NCBI GenBank assembly: GCA_946479475.1
Contig: CAMLGG010000076.1
Span: forward strand, 1-19,850
Direction of reading: 5' to 3'
From: an uncultured Ideonella sp.
Lineage (GTDB): Bacteria; Pseudomonadota; Gammaproteobacteria; Burkholderiales; Burkholderiaceae
DNA length: 19,850 nucleotides
Position 1 is the stretch's first letter. Each line of letters begins with the position of its first letter. A program made the position numbers and the translations under genes. Below are positions 10,669-19,559 of this stretch, piece by piece. Under the pieces are notes generated by a model that saw only the letters and a list, made by a program, of their open reading frames with translations, was not told the origin of the DNA and did not search any database.

Positions 10669-11655
10669 TCAGTGGGTAAGCGCGGCCATGCGTTGCCGGA
10701 GCTGGGGGACCGCCGCCATGGCCGCCTCGCGGCCTGACTGGATCGCCTTGGCGCGGGCGGTGAAGTCGGCGCCGGAGACGCCGGCCAGGGTGGGCCGCAT
10801 GACGACATCCGCTTCCTTCAGCTCGAAGCGGTTGATGCTGCGGCCCATGATGGCGAAGGTCTGGAGCAGCAGGCGCAGGGCATCGCCAGTCCCGTTGCCA
10901 TCCGGCGGGGTGGAGATGTCCACGGCGATGACCAGCTCCGCGCCCATCTGCCGGGCAAAGCGGACAGGCACAGGCGAGACCAGGCCGCCGTCCACATACT
11001 CGTGGGTGCCGATCTTCACCGGCTGGAAGACGGCCGGCACGGCGCTGGATGCCCGAACCGCGGCCCCGACGTCGCCCCGCTGGAAGAGGATAGGCTGGCC
11101 GTCCGAAAGGTCCGTCGCCACGATGCCCAGCGGCAGCTTCATCTGCTCGATCGTCAAACCGCCCGTCTGGCCGCGAACGTAGCGCGCCAGCGCCTCGCCC
11201 CGTATCAGGCCCCGGCCCGGGAAGGACCAGTCCGTCAATCCCGATTCGTCCATCGACTGGGCCAGGCTGCCCATCTCGACCCCGCTCTTGCCGGAGGCGT
11301 AAAGCGCGGCCACCAGGCTGCCTGCGGAGGTTCCGACCACCAGGTCGGGGTGGATGCCCTGCTCCTCCAGCACCTGGATCACCCCGATGTGTGCGAAGCC
11401 CCGCGCTGCGCCACCGCCCAGCGCCAGTCCGATCCGCGGAGGACGCGGCGCAGGCGGAGCACTGACTGGTTGTTGCGGCGCAACAACCGGCGGCTCCCCG
11501 ACCGGCTGGCGAGGAGGGGCCGGAGCGGTCGTCTGGCAGGCCGCCAGCGGCCCGGCAGCCATGGCCCAAAGCAGTCGCCGGCAGAACACCCGGCGCGAGT
11601 CGGCGTTCTCTTTAGATTCGGTTGAAATATCCAAGTGAATTTTGTGTTCTTTCAA
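10669..11655 (-). CDS. Patatin-like phospholipase (RssA/NTE type), probable Tat-exported lipoprotein
   Basis: A 328-aa patatin-family serine esterase or phospholipase using a Ser-Asp dyad. The oxyanion-hole motif GGGAARG begins at about residue 80, the nucleophile is S110 in GTSAGS, and the Asp lies in VDGGLVSPVPV. The N-terminus has S20-R21-R22-V-F-C, close to the twin-arginine motif, then a short hydrophobic stretch and the lipobox LAAC with C40. The product is therefore probably a lipoprotein at the cell envelope. A Pro-rich linker (41-73) leads to the catalytic domain. No ATG is available upstream of the twin arginine. TTG at 11655, with GGAG 12 nt upstream, is the likely start; TTG at codon 8 is an alternative. 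Diverges from cysI. Confidence 0.88.
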   Translation of the reverse strand: MKEHKIHLDISTESKENADSRRVFCRRLLWAMAAGPLAACQTTAPAPPRQPVGEPPVVAPQQPVSAPPAPRPPRIGLALGGGAARGFAHIGVIQVLEEQGIHPDLVVGTSAGSLVAALYASGKSGVEMGSLAQSMDESGLTDWSFPGRGLIRGEALARYVRGQTGGLTIEQMKLPLGIVATDLSDGQPILFQRGDVGAAVRASSAVPAVFQPVKIGTHEYVDGGLVSPVPVRFARQMGAELVIAVDISTPPDGNGTGDALRLLLQTFAIMGRSINRFELKEADVVMRPTLAGVSGADFTARAKAIQSGREAAMAAVPQLRQRMAALTH

Positions 11656-11659
11656 AGAA
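11647..11659. promoter_or_regulatory. Perfect 13-bp palindrome TTCTTTCAAAGAA (T-N11-A)
   Basis: TTCTTT and AAAGAA flank a single C in the AT-rich divergent spacer between the patatin gene and cysI. T-N11-A with dyad symmetry is the usual core of LysR-type regulator sites, and CysB, the sulfur regulator, is of that family. It overlaps the proposed TTG start of the patatin gene. CysB binding is inference. Confidence 0.4.
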
Positions 11660-11678
11660 TATGGAGGCTCCGTAGAGT
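11650..11678 (+). promoter_or_regulatory. Weak promoter candidate for the cys operon
   Basis: TTTCAA (11650-11655) and TAGAGT (11673-11678) are 17 bp apart, with poor matches to consensus (3 and 4 of 6). This would fit an activator-dependent promoter. Transcription would start about 38 nt before the cysI ATG. The -35 overlaps the palindrome at 11647-11659. Confidence 0.3.
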
Positions 11679-11722
11679 CGCTGTCAGGCCGCTTTCCAGT
11701 GGCAAAACCATTCGCCCTTCAC

Positions 11723-13459
11723 ATGTACCAGTACACCTCTTTCGACCGCCAGTTTGTCCGCCAAAGGGCCGCACAGTTTCGTGATCAGCTCGAGCGCAAC
11801 CTGGCCGGCGAGCTGGCTGACGACGACTTCCGCCCCCTGCGGCTGCAGAACGGGTGGTACATCCAGCGGCATGCGCCGATGCTGCGTGTCGCGGTCCCCT
11901 ATGGTGAATTGTCGTCGCGTCAATTGCGCCAGCTCGCTCGCATCGGGCGTGAACTCGACCGCGGCTTCGCCCACTTCACGACGCGCCAGAACGTCCAGTA
12001 CAACTGGATCCCCCTGCCGCGCTCCGCTGACGCGATGGACCTGCTGGCCGAAGTCGACATGCACGGCATCCAGACCTCGGGCAACTGCATCCGCAACATC
12101 ACCAGCGACGTGTTCGCCGGCATCGCGCCGGACGAGATCGTCGACCCGCGGCCGTACTGCGAGATCCTGCGCCAGTGGAGTTCGCTGCATCCCGAGTTCG
12201 CCTTCCTGCCGCGCAAGTTCAAGATCGCCGTCAGCGGCACGGTGGAAGACCGGGCCGCCATCGCCTGGCATGACGTCGGCCTGCAGCTGCTCAAGAACGA
12301 AGCCGGCGAGGTGGGGTTCAAGGTCTACGTGGGTGGCGGAATGGGCCGCACGCCGGTCATCGGCACCGTCGTCAACGCCTTCGTGCCCTGGCAGGAGATC
12401 CTGGTCTACCTGGAGGCCATCGTTCGGGTCTACAACCGCTTCGGCCGGCGCGACAACGCTTACAAGGCGCGGATCAAGATCCTCGTCAAGGCCGAGGGGC
12501 AGAAGTTCATCGACGCGGTGAACGCGGAATTCGCCAAGATCCTGGAGCTCGATGCCGACGGCCGGGAGCACATCATCCCGGTGTCGGAGCTGGAGCGTGT
12601 CGCACGCCACTTCGAGACGCCTGCCGGCGTGCGCCCCGCCACCAACGGCTTCGACCCCAACCGCACCGGCCCGGCGCCGACCGCCTTCCTGCGCTGGATG
12701 GAGCGCAACGTGCACGGCCACAAGGTCCCGGGCTACCGCGCGGTGACGCTCTCGCTCAAGCGCGCGGGCCAGGCCCCCGGTGACGTGACGTCGAGCCAGA
12801 TGGAGGCGGCCGCGACGATCGCCGACCGCTATTCGCTCGGTGAACTGCGCGTCTCGCACGAGCAGAACCTCGTCCTGCCCTGGGTGCGCGAAGCCGACCT
12901 GTTCTCGGTCTGGCACGCGGCCAAGGAAGCCGGCTTCGCCACGCCCAACATCGGCCTGCTGACGGACATGATCGCCTGCCCCGGCGGCGATTTCTGCGCC
13001 CTGGCCAATGCCCGCTCCATCCCGGTCGCAGCCAGCATCACCGAGCGCTTCGACGATCTCGATGCCCTGTACGACCTGGGCAACATCGACCTGCACATCA
13101 GCGGCTGCATCAACTCCTGCGGCCACCACCACAGCGGCCACATCGGCATCCTGGGCGTCGACAAGGATGGCGCCGAGTGGTACCAGGTCTCGATCGGCGG
13201 ATCGGACGGCACGACCTTCAGCGGCGCTGCGACGCCGGGCAAGGTGATCGGCCCGTCGTTCTCGGCCGAAGAGGTGCCGGACGTGGTCGAGGCGCTGATC
13301 GATGTCTTCCGCCGCGAGCGAACCGCGGGGGAGCGCTTCATCGAGACCGTCCGTCGGCTCGGCGTGGCGCCTTTCCGTGCCGCCTCCGATGCGGTTCGCC
13401 ACGAGACGGCCGCGCCGGTCAAGGCCGAAGCCGCCGCCGAGATCGCGGAGGCCCTGTGA
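11723..13459 (+). CDS. cysI: Assimilatory sulfite reductase hemoprotein (nitrite/sulfite reductase family)
   Basis: Siroheme/[4Fe-4S] enzyme of 578 aa that takes sulfite to sulfide with six electrons in the cytoplasm. The cluster-siroheme ligands are C419 and C425 (C-PGGDF-C) and C462 and C466 (C-INS-C). The second half also has the conserved GCINSCGHHHSGHIGILG. The N-terminal ferredoxin-like half repeats include FTTRQNVQYNWI. ATG 11723 (MYQYTSFD) is chosen over an upstream ATG at 11642 because family members begin there, although no clear ribosome-binding site is seen. It heads the operon with the DUF934 gene, cysH and cobA. That context favours sulfite over nitrite as substrate. No flavoprotein CysJ is present, so the electron donor is probably a ferredoxin or another reductase. 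Confidence 0.93.
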   Translation: MYQYTSFDRQFVRQRAAQFRDQLERNLAGELADDDFRPLRLQNGWYIQRHAPMLRVAVPYGELSSRQLRQLARIGRELDRGFAHFTTRQNVQYNWIPLPRSADAMDLLAEVDMHGIQTSGNCIRNITSDVFAGIAPDEIVDPRPYCEILRQWSSLHPEFAFLPRKFKIAVSGTVEDRAAIAWHDVGLQLLKNEAGEVGFKVYVGGGMGRTPVIGTVVNAFVPWQEILVYLEAIVRVYNRFGRRDNAYKARIKILVKAEGQKFIDAVNAEFAKILELDADGREHIIPVSELERVARHFETPAGVRPATNGFDPNRTGPAPTAFLRWMERNVHGHKVPGYRAVTLSLKRAGQAPGDVTSSQMEAAATIADRYSLGELRVSHEQNLVLPWVREADLFSVWHAAKEAGFATPNIGLLTDMIACPGGDFCALANARSIPVAASITERFDDLDALYDLGNIDLHISGCINSCGHHHSGHIGILGVDKDGAEWYQVSIGGSDGTTFSGAATPGKVIGPSFSAEEVPDVVEALIDVFRRERTAGERFIETVRRLGVAPFRAASDAVRHETAAPVKAEAAAEIAEAL

Positions 13460-13959
13460 TGAGCGCCCGCATGCACTTCGTCAAGCCTGCCCACGATTCG
13501 TGGCGCGCCGTGGTCGGCGAGTTCGGCCCCACGCCGATTCCCCCCGTCGCGGCCCACAGCCTGCTGACCGAGGAGCAATGGCTGGCCGTCCGCGACACCT
13601 GGCCGGCGGACGTGCCGGTGGGGATCTCGCTCGCCAACACGACCGATGTCGAACGGCTGGCCGATGACCTGCCGCGCTTCGCACTGGTCGCGCTGCAATT
13701 CCCCAAGTGGGTGGACGGCCGCGCCTACAGCCAGGCCCGCGTGCTTCGCAGCCGCCTGCGCTATGCCGGCGAGGTCCGCGCCACCGGCGACGTGGTCGTC
13801 GACATGCTGCCGCTGCTGGCTCGCACGGGTTTCGATGCTGTGCAGTTGCGCGATGGCCAGAGCGAATCCAGCGCGCGGCGGGCCTTGAAGCTGGTGACCG
13901 ACTTCTACCAGGGCGACGTGCACCAGCCGCGCCCGCTGTTCTCGAGGGTTCCGGCATGA
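13459..13959 (+). CDS. DUF934 protein of the sulfite-reduction operon
   Basis: A 166-aa cytoplasmic protein of the DUF934 family, which in many Proteobacteria sits next to cysI and cysH. No catalytic motif or cofactor site is obvious and no cysteine is present. Recognisable family stretches are VPVGISLANTTDVERL, FPKWVDGRAYSQARVLRSRL and GFDAVQLRDGQ. The last two resemble the usual FPxxxDGRxYSxARLLRxR signature. Its ATG overlaps the cysI stop (TGATG), and its stop overlaps the cysH start (ATGA), so translation is coupled on both sides. That implies a fixed ratio with CysI and CysH. A role as accessory or electron-transfer partner of sulfite reductase is a guess from position only. Confidence 0.9.
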   Translation: MSARMHFVKPAHDSWRAVVGEFGPTPIPPVAAHSLLTEEQWLAVRDTWPADVPVGISLANTTDVERLADDLPRFALVALQFPKWVDGRAYSQARVLRSRLRYAGEVRATGDVVVDMLPLLARTGFDAVQLRDGQSESSARRALKLVTDFYQGDVHQPRPLFSRVPA

Positions 13960-14756
13960 CTGCCCAGCAATCTTCCCTTTCCCTGTTGCCTGCGGCCGCT
14001 GCATCGAGCGCGATCTCGCTGTATGCGCGCCATACCGAGGGCTACGAGGAGCGCGTCGAGGCCACCATCGCGCAGCTGCGCGAAGCCGCGGCGGCCCATC
14101 CCGGCTCCATCGTCCAGGCCACGAGCCTGGGAGCCGAGGACATGGTGCTGACCGATCTCATCGCCCGCCTCGGCCTGCCCATCGCGATCGGCACCCTCCA
14201 GACCGGCAAGCTGCACCCGCAGACGCTGGCCCTGATCCCCGCCATCGAAGAGCGCTACGGACTGGATGTCGAGGTCTACAGCCCGCGCGAAGAGGCTGTC
14301 GTGCATTTCGTCCGCCGCCATGGCGAAGAGGCGATGTACCAGAGCATCGAACTGCGCAAGAATTGCTGCCAGGTCCGCAAGCTGGAGCCGCTGTCGCGCA
14401 TGCTCGAGGGTCGCGCGGCCTGGGTCACGGGGCTGCGCCGCGAGCAATCGGCCAACCGCGGCAGCGTGTCGCTGCGCGAGGCCGAGCCGAACGGCCGTGT
14501 CAAGTTCAACCCGCTGGCCGACTGGACCTGGAACGACATCTGGCATTACATCGCTACCCACGACGTGCCCTACAACTCTCTGCACGACCAGTTCATGCCC
14601 AGCATAGGCTGCGCTCCCTGCACCCGCGCCATCGCGGTGGGTGAAGAGTTCCGCGCCGGCCGCTGGTGGTGGGAGGACGAGAAGGCCAAGGAGTGCGGCC
14701 TGCACGCCGTCCAGTCGGTCCGCCAGGACGCCAGCGACGAGGCGGTCGCCGCCTGA
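13956..14756 (+). CDS. cysH: Adenylyl-sulfate (APS) reductase, [4Fe-4S] type
   Basis: A 266-aa enzyme that reduces adenosine 5'-phosphosulfate to sulfite and AMP using thioredoxin or a similar thiol donor. The two cysteine pairs that hold the [4Fe-4S] cluster are present: C137-C138 in RKNCCQVRKLEPL, and C219/C222 in IGCAPCTR. These pairs mark the APS-using type rather than the PAPS-using type. The catalytic cysteine is C247 in the ECGLH motif. Substrate-binding GLRREQSANR and the early TSLGAEDMVL loop are intact. The ATG overlaps the DUF934 stop by four bases. If the substrate is APS, no APS kinase is needed, but ATP sulfurylase is, and its genes are not seen here. Confidence 0.95.
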   Translation: MTAQQSSLSLLPAAAASSAISLYARHTEGYEERVEATIAQLREAAAAHPGSIVQATSLGAEDMVLTDLIARLGLPIAIGTLQTGKLHPQTLALIPAIEERYGLDVEVYSPREEAVVHFVRRHGEEAMYQSIELRKNCCQVRKLEPLSRMLEGRAAWVTGLRREQSANRGSVSLREAEPNGRVKFNPLADWTWNDIWHYIATHDVPYNSLHDQFMPSIGCAPCTRAIAVGEEFRAGRWWWEDEKAKECGLHAVQSVRQDASDEAVAA

Positions 14757-14775
14757 GCCCCGCCAAGGAGCCTGC

Positions 14776-15561
14776 TTGAGCGCCGGCCACGTCATCTTCA
14801 TCGGTGCCGGCCCGGGCGCGGCGGACCTGATCACCCTGCGCGGCGCTCGCGCCCTGGCGCGAGCGGGCGTGGTCCTCCACGACGCACTGACTGATCCCGC
14901 CCTGCGCGAGTTCGCCCCGGCGGCGGAGTGGATCGACGTCGGCAAGCGCGGCTTCTCGGCCTCGACCGGACAGGACAGGATCAACGCACTGCTGGTGCAG
15001 TACGCCTGCACGGGCGCGATCGTGGCTCGCCTGAAGGGCGGAGACCCGAGCGTGTTCGGGCGACTGGAGGAAGAGCAGCAGGCGCTGGCCGAGGCCGGCA
15101 TCTCGAGCGAGATCATTCCCGGCGTGACTTCGGCCCTGGCGGCAGCCGCGGCCTCCGCCCGCCCGCTCACGCGTCGAGGTGATGGCCGCAGCGTTGCGCT
15201 CACCACGGCCATGACGCAGGAAAGAGAGCTCCACGCCGGCCGCCGCGCCGACACCGAGGTCTTCTACATGGCCGGCCGCCAGCTGGGGATGCTCTCGCGC
15301 CGGCTGGCGGAAGCCGGCTGGCCCGCCGACACGTCGGTGTGCGTCGTCTCTCGCGCGGGGTGGCCGGATCAGCTGGTCACCGAGCACCAGGTCGGCACCC
15401 TGCCCGCCGCCTGCGTGCTGCACGCCGGCCGACCCGCCGTCGTGACGGTCGGCGTCGGGGCACGACCCGTCTTGATGCGGCGCAGGGAAGTCGGCGATGA
15501 GAGCGCCGACGAGCCCGAGCCGAGTGAGGTCGATCAGTCCACGGCCTTCACCAGGCCCTAA
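14776..15561 (+). CDS. cobA: Uroporphyrinogen-III C-methyltransferase (SUMT), TTG start
   Basis: A 261-aa S-adenosylmethionine-dependent methyltransferase that makes precorrin-2 from uroporphyrinogen III, the first step towards siroheme, the cofactor of CysI. The family motifs are [22 protein letters not shown] at the N-terminus, [11 protein letters not shown] near residue 90, [14 protein letters not shown] and the PLTRRG segment. It is the stand-alone methyltransferase, not the CysG fusion. Oxidation and iron insertion must be done by an enzyme encoded elsewhere. The start is TTG at 14776, with an ideal AAGGAG 5 nt upstream. No ATG or GTG fits the conserved N-terminus. It follows cysH by 19 bp. 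The acidic tail of about 25 residues after the core is unusual. Confidence 0.93.
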
Positions 15562-15627: not shown

Positions 15628-15659
15628 CTTTGTCGAACTCCCCACTTCCACCGCCACCC

Positions 15660-15983
15660 ATGACCCACGTCGTCACCGAAGCCTGCATCCGCTGCAAGTA
15701 CACCGACTGCGTCGACGTCTGCCCAGTCGATTGCTTCCGCGAAGGCCCCAACTTCCTGGCCATCGACCCCGACGAGTGCATCGATTGCGCGGTGTGCATC
15801 CCGGAGTGCCCGGTCAACGCGATCCTGCCCGAGGAAGACGTGCCGGGCGACCAGCAGAAGTTCATCGCGCTCAACGCCGAACTGGCCAAGAACTGGCCCA
15901 GCATCACCAAGCGCAAGCCGGCCCTGCCGGACGCGGAGGAGTGGAAGGATCGCAAGGACAAGCTCGACCAGCTCGTCCGCTGA
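15660..15983 (+). CDS. fdxA: Seven-iron ferredoxin FdxA
   Basis: A 107-aa low-potential electron carrier holding one [3Fe-4S] and one [4Fe-4S] cluster. The nine N-terminal cysteines C9, C12, C17, C21, C25, C40, C43, C46 and C50 follow the spacing of the Azotobacter FdI family. They lie in [16 protein letters not shown] and [18 protein letters not shown], and the length is typical. ATG 15660 is chosen over an in-frame TTG 30 nt upstream because family members begin MTHVVTE. It ends at a strong terminator. It sits 98 bp after cobA on the same strand. It could feed electrons to the siroheme sulfite reductase, but fdxA has other contexts in related genomes, so this is only a suggestion. Confidence 0.97.
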
Positions 15984-16002
15984 GCCAGCGAGACCTGCAC
16001 CG

Positions 16003-16036
16003 GCCCGCCCGGCACCTGCCGCGGCGGGCTTTTGTT
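16003..16036 (+). terminator. Rho-independent terminator of fdxA
   Basis: GCCCGCC (16003-16009) pairs with GGCGGGC (16023-16029), with a nested CGGC-ACCT-GCCG helix inside, then TTTTGTTT. It starts 19 nt after the fdxA stop and isolates fdxA from the riboswitch leader downstream. Confidence 0.85.
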
Positions 16037-16054
16037 TGCCCTCCGTCAGCCTCG

Positions 16055-16076
16055 GTCCGCGCCGGACGGCGATAAT
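16055..16076 (+). promoter_or_regulatory. Promoter region of the riboswitch-receptor unit
   Basis: GATAAT (16071-16076) is a good -10 element and would give a start near 16083. At the -35 position there is no TTGACA-like hexamer. Instead an inverted repeat GTCCG-CGC-CGGAC (16055-16067) lies just upstream of the -10. This may be a regulator site. Confidence 0.4.
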
Positions 16077-16082
16077 GTCTTC

Positions 16083-16109
16083 TGCCGCAGCGACTTGAGC
16101 GCCGCGGCA
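16083..16109 (+). other. Leader hairpin 5' of the TPP aptamer
   Basis: TGCCGC (16083-16088) pairs with GCGGCA (16104-16109) directly before the aptamer and at the predicted 5' end of the transcript. It may protect the RNA end or help the aptamer fold. Confidence 0.4.
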
Positions 16110-16194
16110 CTTCCGCTAGGGGTGTTGGGTTGCGATGCAGCCCGACTGAGACAGTCCCTTTGAACCTGACTGAGGTAATCCTCGCGCAGGGAAG
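16110..16194 (+). promoter_or_regulatory. TPP riboswitch (THI element)
   Basis: Binds thiamine pyrophosphate and shuts off the downstream gene. P1 is CTTCC (16110-16114) with GGAAG (16190-16194). The conserved TAGGGGTG follows. P3 is formed by GTTGGGTTGC and GCAGCCCGAC. The invariant CTGAGA is at 16146-16151, the CCCTTTGAACCTGA block ends at 16169, GGTAAT is at 16174-16179, and the CGCAGGGAAG end is intact. All the family's conserved blocks are present in order. It controls the TonB-dependent receptor that starts 81 nt after it. Confidence 0.95.
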
Positions 16195-16251
16195 CAGCTC
16201 AAGACGGCCCCGGGCGCCCGCTCGCGGCGCCTCCTTCAGAACTTGCCGACC

Positions 16252-16281
16252 TGCCATCGACCTGTCGAGTCCGAGATGGCA
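16252..16281 (+). promoter_or_regulatory. Start-codon hairpin, candidate riboswitch expression platform
   Basis: TGCCATC (16252-16258) is exactly complementary to GATGGCA (16275-16281), which contains the receptor's ATG (16276-16278). The loop is 16 nt. Closing this 7-bp stem would block translation. No terminator with a T-run lies between aptamer and gene, which fits control of translation. Confidence 0.45.
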
Positions 16282-18384
16282 TCGAGATCCCGTTTTCCCC
16301 TTCCCTCCGCCATTCGCCTGAGTGCCGTTGCGCTGGCCGCATCGAGCGTCTGTGCTGGCCCGATGGCAGCCGAGCAAGTGACCATCACCGGCCGCCTGTC
16401 GCCCCCTGCGGCAAGCGTCGCCGGCTTCGGCGACGTGCCCCTCGGCCAATCTCCGTTCCAGGCGCTGAGCCTGACCAGCGCAAGCCTGGCCGATGCCGGC
16501 ATCGAGTCGCTGGCGGGCGTTTCGGTGCTCGATGCGAGCGTCTCCGACGCGTACAACTCGCCGGGCTACTGGAGCACGCTGACCATCCGCGGATTCGTTC
16601 TCGACAACAACCACAACGTGCAGCGGGATGGCCTGCCCATCAGCGCCGAAACCGCGATCGGCCTGGAGAACAAGGACCGCATCGAGATCCTCAAGGGCAC
16701 CAGCGGCGCGCAGGCCGGCACGAGCTCCCCCGGGGGGCTGGTGAACCTGGTGGTCAAGCGTCCTCGCGGGACCGACCAGTCCACCGTCCTGCTGGGATGG
16801 TCGGAGCGCGGCAACTGGAAGGCTGCCGTCGACGTCGAACGCCAGCTGGGCGATGGCGACGCCCTTGGCCTGAGGCTGAACGCCGCGGTCGAATCGCTCG
16901 ATCCCTTGCTCCACGATGCCAAGGGCGACCGCAGCCTCGTCGCGCTGGCCGGCGCCGCCCGCTTCGGATCGGACCAGAGGCTGGACGCCGAGATCGAGAT
17001 CACCCACCAATCGCAGCCCAGCATGCCGGGCTTCAGCATGCTGGGCAGCCGCGTCCCCACCGCGCACGAGATCGACCCGAGGACCAACCTGAACAACCAG
17101 GCGTGGTCGCTGCCCGTCGTCTTCGACGGCTCCACCGCGAGCCTGCGCTGGACGCAACGCCTGGGCGCCGACTGGCAGATCGTCGCCGACGCCATGACCC
17201 AGCAGTTGCGCACGGACGACCGGATAGCGTTTCCGTACGGCTGCAGCGCCGAGGGGAACTACGACCGGTACTGCAGCGACGGGAGCTTCGATCTCTACGA
17301 CTATCGCAGCGAGCGCGAGCGCCGTGACAGCTTCGCCGGCTCGGTCCGCCTGGATGGCCGCGCCAACTGGGGCGGCATGGCCCACGCGTTGTCGGCGGGC
17401 GTGACGTGGAGCGACTTCCGCCTTCACCCCAACACGCAGGCCTACAACTGGGCGGGCGTGGGCCGGATCGACGGCAGCGTCCAGGTCGACGCCGCGCCCG
17501 AGCCCACGTATGAGACGAGCGGCCGCCATGAACGCAGCACTGAACTGCACCTGCGCGATCACGTCGAGCTGACCGAAGCCACCGGCCTGTGGCTCGGGGT
17601 GCGCCACGCTCGCCTCGAACGCGGCTACGAGCAGTCTTTCACCACGCCATGGGTGGCCCTTACCCACGAGCTCAACGACTCCCTCATGCTTTACGGTAGC
17701 TGGGGCGAAGGCGTCGAGAGCGAGGTTGCGCCATCGCTGTCCACCTACACCAATGCGGGCCAGGTGCTCCCGGCCTTGCGCAGCAAGCAGGTCGAGCTCG
17801 GCCTGAAGCTCTCCCGCAAGGACTGGAGCGCCGGCCTTTCCGCCTTCGACGTCCGCCGCCCGGCGACGAACGACGTCGGCCCCTGTGATGGCACCGACGG
17901 CAGTTGTACCCGCCGCATCGATGGCGAGGCGCATCACCTCGGCCTCGAAGCCGATGCAGAGTCGCGCTGGGGTGCCTTCGGCCTGCAAGGCAGCGCCATG
18001 TGGTTGCGCGCCCGCCGCGAGGGTTCGACGGACGTGGGTCTTGAAGGCCTCGTGCCGACGAATGTGGCGCAGCGCAGTGCGCGCATGGTGGCCAGCTGGC
18101 AGCCGGAGGCCGTCCCCGGCCTGGCTGCGCAAGCCAGCCTCGACTACCAGGGCCCGCGCTTTGGCCTGCCCGACAACAGCGCCCGCATTCCCGGCTGGAC
18201 CACCGTGGGACTGGGCGCCCGCTACGCGACCAGGGCGTTCGGCCACCAGTGGCTGGCGCGCATCGGCGTCGACAACCTCTTCGACCGCCGTGCCTGGCGT
18301 GAAAGCCCCTACCAGTTCAGCCACGTGTACCTGTATCCGCTGGAGCCTCGGACTTTCCGCGCGTCCTTGCAGGCCACCTTGTGA
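16276..18384 (+). CDS. TonB-dependent outer-membrane receptor under TPP riboswitch control (candidate thiamine transporter)
   Basis: A 702-aa outer-membrane receptor that would import a ligand with energy from TonB-ExbBD. A signal peptide ends near residue 32 (PMAA), followed by a TonB-box-like EQVTITG (33-39). The plug domain follows, with STLTIRGF, RIEILKGTSGAQAGTSSPGGLVNLVVKRP and the rest. A 22-strand-type barrel then runs to FRASLQATL. By sequence it resembles siderophore receptors, but the TPP riboswitch points to thiamine or a precursor. Four cysteines lie in what should be external loops (C323/C333 and C537/C544) and could form disulfides. The C-terminal residue is Leu, not the usual Phe. 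ATG 16276 has only a weak GAG upstream; an in-frame TTG at 16243 is less likely. Confidence 0.9.
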   Translation: MASRSRFPLPSAIRLSAVALAASSVCAGPMAAEQVTITGRLSPPAASVAGFGDVPLGQSPFQALSLTSASLADAGIESLAGVSVLDASVSDAYNSPGYWSTLTIRGFVLDNNHNVQRDGLPISAETAIGLENKDRIEILKGTSGAQAGTSSPGGLVNLVVKRPRGTDQSTVLLGWSERGNWKAAVDVERQLGDGDALGLRLNAAVESLDPLLHDAKGDRSLVALAGAARFGSDQRLDAEIEITHQSQPSMPGFSMLGSRVPTAHEIDPRTNLNNQAWSLPVVFDGSTASLRWTQRLGADWQIVADAMTQQLRTDDRIAFPYGCSAEGNYDRYCSDGSFDLYDYRSERERRDSFAGSVRLDGRANWGGMAHALSAGVTWSDFRLHPNTQAYNWAGVGRIDGSVQVDAAPEPTYETSGRHERSTELHLRDHVELTEATGLWLGVRHARLERGYEQSFTTPWVALTHELNDSLMLYGSWGEGVESEVAPSLSTYTNAGQVLPALRSKQVELGLKLSRKDWSAGLSAFDVRRPATNDVGPCDGTDGSCTRRIDGEAHHLGLEADAESRWGAFGLQGSAMWLRARREGSTDVGLEGLVPTNVAQRSARMVASWQPEAVPGLAAQASLDYQGPRFGLPDNSARIPGWTTVGLGARYATRAFGHQWLARIGVDNLFDRRAWRESPYQFSHVYLYPLEPRTFRASLQATL

Positions 18385-18408
18385 AACCGCAAAAAATCTG
18401 TCTATAAT
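18379..18408 (+). promoter_or_regulatory. Promoter of tRNA-Asn
   Basis: TTGTGA (18379-18384) and TATAAT (18403-18408, perfect -10) are 18 bp apart. The -35 overlaps the receptor stop codon. The expected start is near 18415, a few bases before the tRNA. Confidence 0.7.
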
Positions 18409-18421
18409 CTGAGGCTTCACT

Positions 18422-18497
18422 TCCCCGATAGCTCAGTCGGTAGAGCGCCGGACTGTTAATCCGTAGGTCCCTGGTTCGAGCCCAGGTCGGGGAGCCA
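18422..18497 (+). tRNA. tRNA-Asn (anticodon GTT)
   Basis: A 76-nt cloverleaf. The acceptor stem is TCCCCGA (18422-18428) with TCGGGGA (18487-18493), G as discriminator base, and an encoded CCA. The D arm is GCTCAGTCGGTAGAGC, the anticodon loop is CTGTTAA with GTT, and the T arm is CTGGTTCGAGCCCAG. No integrase or attachment repeat is visible nearby. Confidence 0.98.
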
Positions 18498-18517
18498 AGA
18501 CAAGCAAGAAGAAGTTC

Positions 18518-18550
18518 AAAGCCAGCGCGGATTCCTGCGCTGGCTTTTTT
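18518..18550 (+). terminator. Rho-independent terminator after tRNA-Asn
   Basis: AAAGCCAGCGC pairs with GCGCTGGCTTT around an eight-base loop, followed by a run of six T (18545-18550). It lies 20 nt after the tRNA and separates it from the gltI-like gene. Confidence 0.88.
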
Positions 18551-18578
18551 CTTGGGCCCTTCTCATGGGAGTCTTCTC

Positions 18579-19559
18579 GTGAGAGCCTTCTTGGAAAGCA
18601 GGATGCCGGCTCGCCGAACCCTCGTTGTCGATCTCGCCCTCGCGATCCTGGCCGCGCTGCCGGCCAGCGGCATCGCCGCTGCGCCGGCTCCAGCCCCTGC
18701 CGCGTCCTCGACGTCCGTGGCCGATTCCGCGACCCTGCGCAAGATCCGGGACACCGGCCTCATCACGGTCGGCCACCGCCTCACCTCCATCCCCTTCTCC
18801 TATCTCGATGCCAGGCTGCGGCCGGTCGGCTATTCGATGGATCTGTGCCAGCGAGTGGTCGAGGCCATCCGCACGCGGCTCGACCTGAGCGACCTCGAAG
18901 TGAAGCTGGTGGCGGTCACCTCGGCCACTCGCATGCCGCTGGTGGCCAACGGTTCGGTCGATCTCGAGTGCGGGGTGACGACCAACACCGCGGAGCGGCA
19001 GAAGTCCCAGGCCTTCTCCGTCACCACCTTCGTCGCCGCGAGCCGCCTGCTCGCCAAGAAGGAAAGCGAGATCCGCACGGTCGAGGACCTGCGCGGCAAG
19101 GTCGTGGCGTCCACCATCGCGACCACCAGCATCCGCTACCTTCACAACGTCAACGAGACGCGCAAGCTGGACATGCGCATCGTCGCGGGCCAGGACGACA
19201 CCGATGCCTTCCAGATGGTGCTCAACGACCGGGCGGTCGCCTTCGCCATGGACGACGTCCTGCTTCGCAGCTTCCAGGCCAGCGCTGGCAACCCGGGGGA
19301 CTACAGCATCTCGGAGGAGGCCCTGTCGGTCGAGCCCTACGGGATCGGGCTGCCCAAGGACGATCCCGTCTTCAAGCAGCTCGTCGACGGCGTGCTGGTG
19401 GACCTCTACCGCAGCGGCGAGATCCAAGCGATCTACCGCAAGTGGTTCCAGCAGCCCATCCCGCCCAAGGGAATCAACCTGCAACTGCCGATGAGCGAAG
19501 CGCTCAAGCGGGCGATTGCCCAGCCGACGGACGACCCGGAACCGGCGCGCTACCGCTAG
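18579..19559 (+). CDS. gltI: GltI-like glutamate/aspartate ABC transporter periplasmic binding protein
   Basis: A 326-aa solute-binding protein of family 3 that captures acidic amino acids in the periplasm for an ABC importer. It matches E. coli GltI along its length: LRKIRDTGLITVGHRLTSIPFSY, VGYSMDLCQRVVEAI, NGSVDLECGVTTNTAERQK, FVAASRLLAKK, VAFAMDDVLL and the KWFQQPIPPKGINL end. A signal peptide ends near GIAAAP. The GTG at 18579 has GGGAG 7 nt upstream. ATG 18603 (MPARRTL), 24 nt downstream, is an equally serious start. No permease or ATPase genes (gltJKL) follow; an NtrC-type regulator gene converges instead. The binding protein would depend on membrane components encoded elsewhere. Confidence 0.9.
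   Translation: MRAFLESRMPARRTLVVDLALAILAALPASGIAAAPAPAPAASSTSVADSATLRKIRDTGLITVGHRLTSIPFSYLDARLRPVGYSMDLCQRVVEAIRTRLDLSDLEVKLVAVTSATRMPLVANGSVDLECGVTTNTAERQKSQAFSVTTFVAASRLLAKKESEIRTVEDLRGKVVASTIATTSIRYLHNVNETRKLDMRIVAGQDDTDAFQMVLNDRAVAFAMDDVLLRSFQASAGNPGDYSISEEALSVEPYGIGLPKDDPVFKQLVDGVLVDLYRSGEIQAIYRKWFQQPIPPKGINLQLPMSEALKRAIAQPTDDPEPARYR

Follow-up and report, generated by a model that had tools for sequence, protein, structure and literature searches.

A vitamin receptor under its own vitamin's riboswitch is familiar from BtuB, in the case of cobalamin, and the original Omr1 proposal was reportedly made by Rodionov in 2002. FemA and BauA have iron-chelate ligands and are under iron control. 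For thiamine, OMthi (BT2390) of Bacteroides thetaiotaomicron is described as a TonB-dependent thiamine transporter with a TPP riboswitch (PMC5613172). When OMthi was lost from a biosynthesis mutant, the thiamine EC50 rose from 2.8 to 15.8 nM; single deletion of OMthi caused no defect, and, despite the TPP riboswitch, the expression of OMthi and the transport operons did not change significantly with thiamine (PMC5613172). A TPP operon reported from a Variovorax isolate includes, besides a permease, a TonB receptor-like protein "predicted to be a thiamine active transporter" (PMC10409787), and Omr1 appears as a potential B1 transporter in coastal bacteria, with SAR86 and Flavobacteriales named (PMC10881298). 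A large riboswitch-regulon survey represented the betaproteobacteria by Burkholderia and Ralstonia only, and excepted these two from the lineages with TPP-controlled thiamin transporters (PMC3766115). That outer-membrane receptors regulated by THI elements had been proposed in other bacteria, as stated in the preliminary description of the DNA studied here, agrees with the accounts of OMthi, the Variovorax protein, and Omr1.

The window, that is, the whole 19,850-nucleotide stretch of DNA analyzed here, carries a TPP riboswitch followed by a TonB-dependent receptor gene (Table 1), and the two quite likely form a thiamine-acquisition unit under TPP control. The leader is a TPP riboswitch by its covariance score: the match to Rfam model RF00059 spans model positions 1-105 and, at 58.7 bits (E 1.8e-9), exceeds the gathering score of 54.3, which bears out the earlier reading of a complete THI element with its blocks in order; TPP binding is putative. 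The aptamer end and the receptor ATG are separated by 66 bases. The next gene was correctly described as a TonB-dependent receptor, with Pfam Plug (38.4 bits) and beta-barrel (112.1 bits) domains both above cut-off, and the protein shows the TonB-receptor fold. A TTG at 16243 was listed as an alternative start of this frame, which ends at 18384; the ATG at 16276 is the likelier start, because a signal-peptide-like stretch begins there (by eye) and because it aligns with orthologue starts. The stretch EQVTITG, seen by eye near residue 33 and within the low-confidence residues 1-38, is a possible TonB box. Because relatives of the pair occur in many bacteria that appear not to make vitamin B1, the receptor very probably imports this vitamin.

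Table 1. Coordinates of features in the window and in related loci (L numbers)
Feature	Location	Strand	Basis or remark
Ferredoxin FdxA, gene just upstream	15630..15983	+	171.6 bits, cut-off 135
TPP riboswitch aptamer (THI element, RF00059)	16108..16209	+	Rfam covariance-model match
Aptamer 3' end GCAGGGAAGC, including GCAGG	16186..16195	+	Coordinates
Conserved leader block GCCGACCTGCCATC; includes the start-codon hairpin's 5' arm (16252-16258)	16245..16258	+	
3' arm of the start-codon hairpin, GATGGCA, containing ATG	16275..16281	+	Seven-pair match to 16252-16258
TonB-dependent receptor, 702 aa, Plug and beta-barrel, candidate outer-membrane thiamine importer	16276..18384	+	
tRNA gene directly downstream, anticodon GTT	18422..18494	+	Asn (by eye)
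Terminator-like stem and T run after the tRNA	18518..18547	+	Consensus match; 2 found vs 1.5 expected in shuffles
Insert-bearing receptor leaders	L017, L019, L026, L027, L033, L036, L038, L102, L111, L113; also L057 3134-3265		
Back-to-back twin TPP riboswitches, receptor and thiD	L020 1154-1412		
Back-to-back twin TPP riboswitches, receptor and thiD	L021 3694-3970		
Back-to-back twin TPP riboswitches, receptor and thiM	L045 3078-3346		
Back-to-back twin TPP riboswitches, receptor and thiC	L050 731-995		

The pair was followed through 299 genomes of one family, a member of which (G108) has an M3 peptidase 67% identical to the window's. With three candidates scored per genome, the receptor was found at E<=1e-90 in 149 genomes, 39-58% identical to the window's protein, with one copy in 148 and two in G588; among the names carried by protein-database homologues are Ideonella, Aquincola, and Aquabacterium. 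Of the 149 receptor genomes, 148 were searched with the TPP model, and searches over 40 genomes used stricter filters, which lose weak matches. The riboswitch-receptor arrangement is far beyond chance, since 139 of 150 orthologue places have a same-strand TPP riboswitch directly upstream (joined by coordinates), 93 of these riboswitches being above the gathering score. Less than 45 bits was scored by 22 of the 139, and 21 of those 22 are at least 120 bases long. Some receptor aptamers carry an insert of 33-54 bases between the GAACCTG and GAGGTAAT blocks, which often looks by eye like two small hairpins; the spacing of these blocks was 49-70 bases, versus the usual 16 or so, in 10 of the 72 measurable aptamers among 85.

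The 11 places without a direct upstream match include the second receptor of the tandem pair in G588. In five genomes (G630, G722, G791, G701, and G766) the receptor lies 5-10 kb behind a same-strand TPP riboswitch with thiamine-type genes between. Upstream matches were weak in G733 (36.3 bits), cut by the contig end in G527 (38.9 bits), and weaker still in G781 (24.7 bits, E 0.85), where the aptamer blocks are readable by eye; G803, which stood outside the first TPP search, has an upstream riboswitch of 58.4 bits. G688 is a possible case of lost control: no riboswitch was detected before its receptor (L055, 2038-4200), which follows an fdxA-like frame after a short gap, in a genome that has thiC. 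A phylum sample of 200 genomes contained six relatives at 31-34% identity. At one of them (L006), outside the family's close orthologues, a TPP riboswitch of 67.7 bits (1148-1243) precedes a receptor 32% identical to the window's, and TPP riboswitches were not found within the 1.5 kb examined at the other five; judging by L006, the pairing may be older or have arisen twice. A plasmid collection gave nine records, all at 26-31% identity, with no TPP match in the three examined (L117-L119), and one scan of genome contigs gave a single weak locus.

Beyond the aptamer, the leaders share a block of the GCCGACCTGCCATC type, then a spacer, and then GATGGCA with the ATG start codon. The resulting hairpin was evaluated in 85 leaders (84 of 88 loci plus the window), of which 5 had no start codon and 8 of the remaining 80 were dropped for want of a usable CCTG anchor, leaving 72; the automatic choice of start was probably wrong in L014 and perhaps in other leaders. 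With the 5' arm anchored on CCTG and not on pairing, 511 of 576 cells were paired over the 72 leaders. When the 3' arms were dealt anew among loci, 480 cells were paired (sd 4.3) and none of 2000 deals reached 511; for the 35 distinct arm pairs only, the count was 226 of 280 versus 212 (sd 3.8), and again no deal reached the observed value. These shuffles keep the relatedness among loci, and the second codon, GCN, contributes to the signal, but the 5' arm is non-coding. Arms slid out of register paired in only 95-299 cells, and the two pairs next to the ATG vary among C-G, G-T, A-T, T-A, T-G, and G-C. In single loci the signal was modest: at p<=0.05 the longest start helix beat shuffles in 33 of the 80 leaders, a number that fell to 11 at p<=0.01, and the folding energy of the window leader was no better than that of shuffles (z -0.23 and z 0.13). 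Taken as a family, the leaders give a strong signal: a hairpin that holds the AUG in its stem is conserved and co-varies, which points to control of translation start. An intrinsic terminator was rejected as expression platform: the only pre-gene site within the scanned 15980-18600 (16015-16028) lies upstream of the riboswitch.

To the elements that were computed, namely the aptamer, the receptor, the conserved pairing of both, the conserved start-codon hairpin, and an association with genomes that yielded neither thiC nor thiE, a mechanism can be fitted. Plentiful cytoplasmic TPP would bind the aptamer, the bound leader would fold the hairpin that hides the start codon, and little receptor would be made; when TPP is scarce, the hairpin would open and the receptor would be produced. 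GCAGG, present in 80 of the 85 aptamers of receptor leaders, could pair within the aptamer or with CCTGC of the leader, and the latter pairing might form without TPP; the energies do not favor it, the hairpin being the more stable of the two by a median of 3.2 kcal/mol (66 leaders). Once made, the TonB-energized receptor would draw thiamine or a thiamine phosphate through the outer membrane, presumably together with an inner-membrane partner.

The nature of the cargo is best approached through the biosynthetic capacity of the genomes. In 60 of the 139 genomes the receptor's TPP riboswitch was the only one found, and these sole-riboswitch genomes were compared with 20 chosen among the remaining 89 (4 exceptions plus 16 further genomes); a Fisher test of the contrast applies to these 80 genomes only. 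Searches for thiC and thiE were negative in all 60, with the proviso that a very diverged ThiE could escape, because only 4 of the 18 comparison genomes with a thiE match at E<=0.001 (18 of 20) reach the curated cut-off. The comparison set had thiC in 17 of 20 genomes, and a TPP riboswitch lay upstream of 16 of these 17 genes, the 17th, in G803, being outside that search. ThiL (TMP kinase) was above cut-off in 56 of the 60 (76 of 80 overall), which argues against genome incompleteness as the sole cause of the missing thiC and thiE matches. On the receptor tree (quick search, no bootstrap, two short rows left out), thiC changed state at least 9 times, counted over labelled rows only and with G781, G519, and G639 treated as lacking thiC; the window's nearest relative, G584, is without thiC, and G733 and G688 have it.

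Cells of the sole-riboswitch group therefore appear incapable of making the pyrimidine or of coupling it to the thiazole. Since neither gene was found in any of the 60, import of pyrimidine or thiazole alone would not feed these cells, which would need preformed thiamine or its phosphate, and this makes preformed thiamine or a phosphate ester (thiamine, TMP, or TPP) the likeliest cargo of the receptor. Of the ligands named beforehand, thiamine, a phosphate ester, or a precursor, the first two are thus favored, and a precursor alone fits poorly with the empty thiC and thiE counts. A narrower proposal is that the receptor is the outer-membrane gate for a large share of the thiamine-requiring family members and carries TMP (or TPP) and not free thiamine. 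It draws on the retention of ThiL together with the failure to find thiamine pyrophosphokinase in any of the 80 genomes; import of TMP or TPP would solve the supply of TMP for ThiL, as would a thiamine kinase, and we hold the narrower proposal to be unlikely.

The genes around the receptor bear on whether a precursor is imported. The preliminary description held that the receptor stands alone, and this is correct for the window, where no thiamine biosynthesis gene or known thiamine permease was recognized among the 17 proteins scanned, but not for the family, in which thiC, thiD, thiM, thiE, thiG, thiO-like, and cytX-like neighbors occur. In some relatives a second, divergent TPP riboswitch lies back to back with that of the receptor. 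It leads to thiD in G586 and G690 (Pfam score 306 bits for each), to thiC cut by the contig end in G516, and to thiM in G639; in G690 the gene after thiD encodes a ThiO-like protein (215.7 bits, cut-off 250.8). G778 (L046) has the order TPP riboswitch, CytX-like permease, TPP riboswitch, receptor. Beside the receptor's own riboswitch, an extra one occurs with ThiO-like and ThiG proteins in G579 and with ThiD and CytX-like proteins in G761. Where the receptor follows its riboswitch at a distance, the interval contains a cytosine/thiamine-type permease, ThiD (other strand), and ThiG in G722; a cytosine/thiamine-type permease and a DAO-type oxidoreductase in G630; a ThiO-like protein, ThiG, and TMP synthase in G701; a CytX-like permease in G791; and ABC transporter genes, ThiD (other strand), a DAO-type oxidoreductase, ThiG, and ThiE in G766. 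The TPP-led run in G766 (L047 1260-6714) also includes acyl enzymes resembling LuxE and LuxC, as well as an ABC transporter whose binding protein is NMT1/THI5-like, with the thi genes and the receptor further on.

Such neighbors could mean that what enters through the receptor is not thiamine itself but a precursor or a breakdown product (hydroxymethylpyrimidine, aminopyrimidine, or thiazole) destined for salvage. Consistent with this are the ThiM and CytX-like proteins adjoining the receptor in some relatives, the CytX family being named for hydroxymethylpyrimidine, as well as G639, which is without thiC but has thiE and thiM, and the ABC set with its NMT1/THI5-like binding protein ahead of the receptor in G766. 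However, the four CytX-like proteins scored reached 223-248 bits, under the cut-off of 309.85, and a CytX substrate is not assignable from such scores; moreover, joining of pyrimidine and thiazole should fail in the 60 sole-riboswitch genomes, where thiC and thiE were not found. Salvage of a precursor is accordingly a distinctly improbable role, and import of thiamine or its phosphates is preferred.

It is still less probable that the protein is a siderophore receptor of the usual sort, with a TPP riboswitch by coincidence and iron as its real cargo. By sequence alone, according to the preliminary description, the protein would be called a siderophore receptor, a name that fits only approximately: TIGR01783 (TonB-dependent siderophore receptor) gave 221.1 bits, 2.4 under the curated cut-off of 223.5. 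The closest solved structures are the siderophore receptors FemA and BauA, and the best 50 structure matches of each list comprise siderophore-type, ferric citrate, catecholate/colicin, cobalamin, PQQ (PqqU/YncD), and heme receptors; no thiamine receptor was among them, which says little on the ligand. The fold does not reveal the ligand. Residues such as R117, S254, Q309, E348, E423, and P678 are conserved within the clade but do not occur in the six outgroup rows compared. Against an iron cargo stand the retention of the riboswitch in orthologues sharing as little as about 40% identity with the window's protein, the thiamine-gene neighbors in relatives, and the lack of any Fur-box-like site that stands out. 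In a simple consensus test, the best Fur-box match in the window was 10 of 19 bases, the mean over 89 loci was 10.8 versus 10.3 in shuffles, and the highest match was 14 for loci and shuffles alike, so that iron control gained little support by this route, no clear enrichment being seen. Least probable of all is that the receptor supplies something the thiamine pathway consumes, such as iron for the Fe-S enzyme ThiC, under indirect TPP control: the upstream gene is a ferredoxin and genomes with thiC also have the receptor, but 60 genomes that yielded no ThiC retain the receptor behind a TPP riboswitch.

Regarding the surroundings of the unit, an FdxA-like protein occupies the matching upstream spot in L056 too. 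Farther upstream, window positions 11642-15558 encode a sulfite/nitrite-reductase-like protein, a CysH-like reductase, and a uroporphyrinogen methyltransferase, which look like a sulfur-assimilation cluster, and by eye L056 has a resembling order. On the other side, the tRNA is a conserved boundary outside the function of the receptor unit: a tRNA gene lies 3' of the receptor in 19 of 20 related loci scanned (L009-L028), in two or three copies in 8 of them, and the receptor-tRNA junction appears as a conserved chromosomal spot. An amino-acid-type binding protein follows the tRNA (18576-19556); its NMT1/THI5-like match is marginal (20.7 bits, cut-off 20.5) and is greatly exceeded by the SBP_bac_3 match at 88.4 bits.

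Receptors of this clade are named TonB-dependent siderophore or iron complex receptors (named hits among the 120 matches listed), and if thiamine is the cargo, many of these names would be wrong. The gene would then also serve as a marker for vitamin B1 exchange in bacterial communities, and its occurrence as the sole TPP target would be a sign of a likely whole-thiamine auxotroph. The receptor is, in addition, an easy test case for how TonB receptors handle a small cationic vitamin.

Among known systems, BtuB shares the TonB-receptor fold with the window receptor at about 16% identity and serves another vitamin, and FemA and BauA differ from it by their iron-chelate ligands and iron control. 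Going by published descriptions, the window receptor resembles Omr1 in being TonB-dependent, in its proximity to TPP riboswitches, and in having its ligand assigned from regulation (PMC10881298). OMthi is similarly an outer-membrane TonB-dependent receptor behind a TPP riboswitch, but it belongs to Bacteroidota and its regulon includes a pnuT operon (PMC5613172). Closest in lineage is the betaproteobacterial thi operon of Variovorax, which is led by a TPP riboswitch, contains a permease and a TonB receptor, and has a layout resembling L041-L043; going by that source, a thiamine TonB receptor under TPP control is not a new idea for this bacterial group (PMC10409787). In the open-access literature searched, neither the orphan arrangement nor its link with auxotrophy was seen described. 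As described, the Variovorax receptor sits in the biosynthetic operon of a thiamine producer (PMC10409787), whereas here an orphan receptor has its own riboswitch and is the sole TPP target found in 60 relatives. What the present analysis adds is the breadth of this orphan arrangement, its link to whole-thiamine auxotrophy, and the switch platform.
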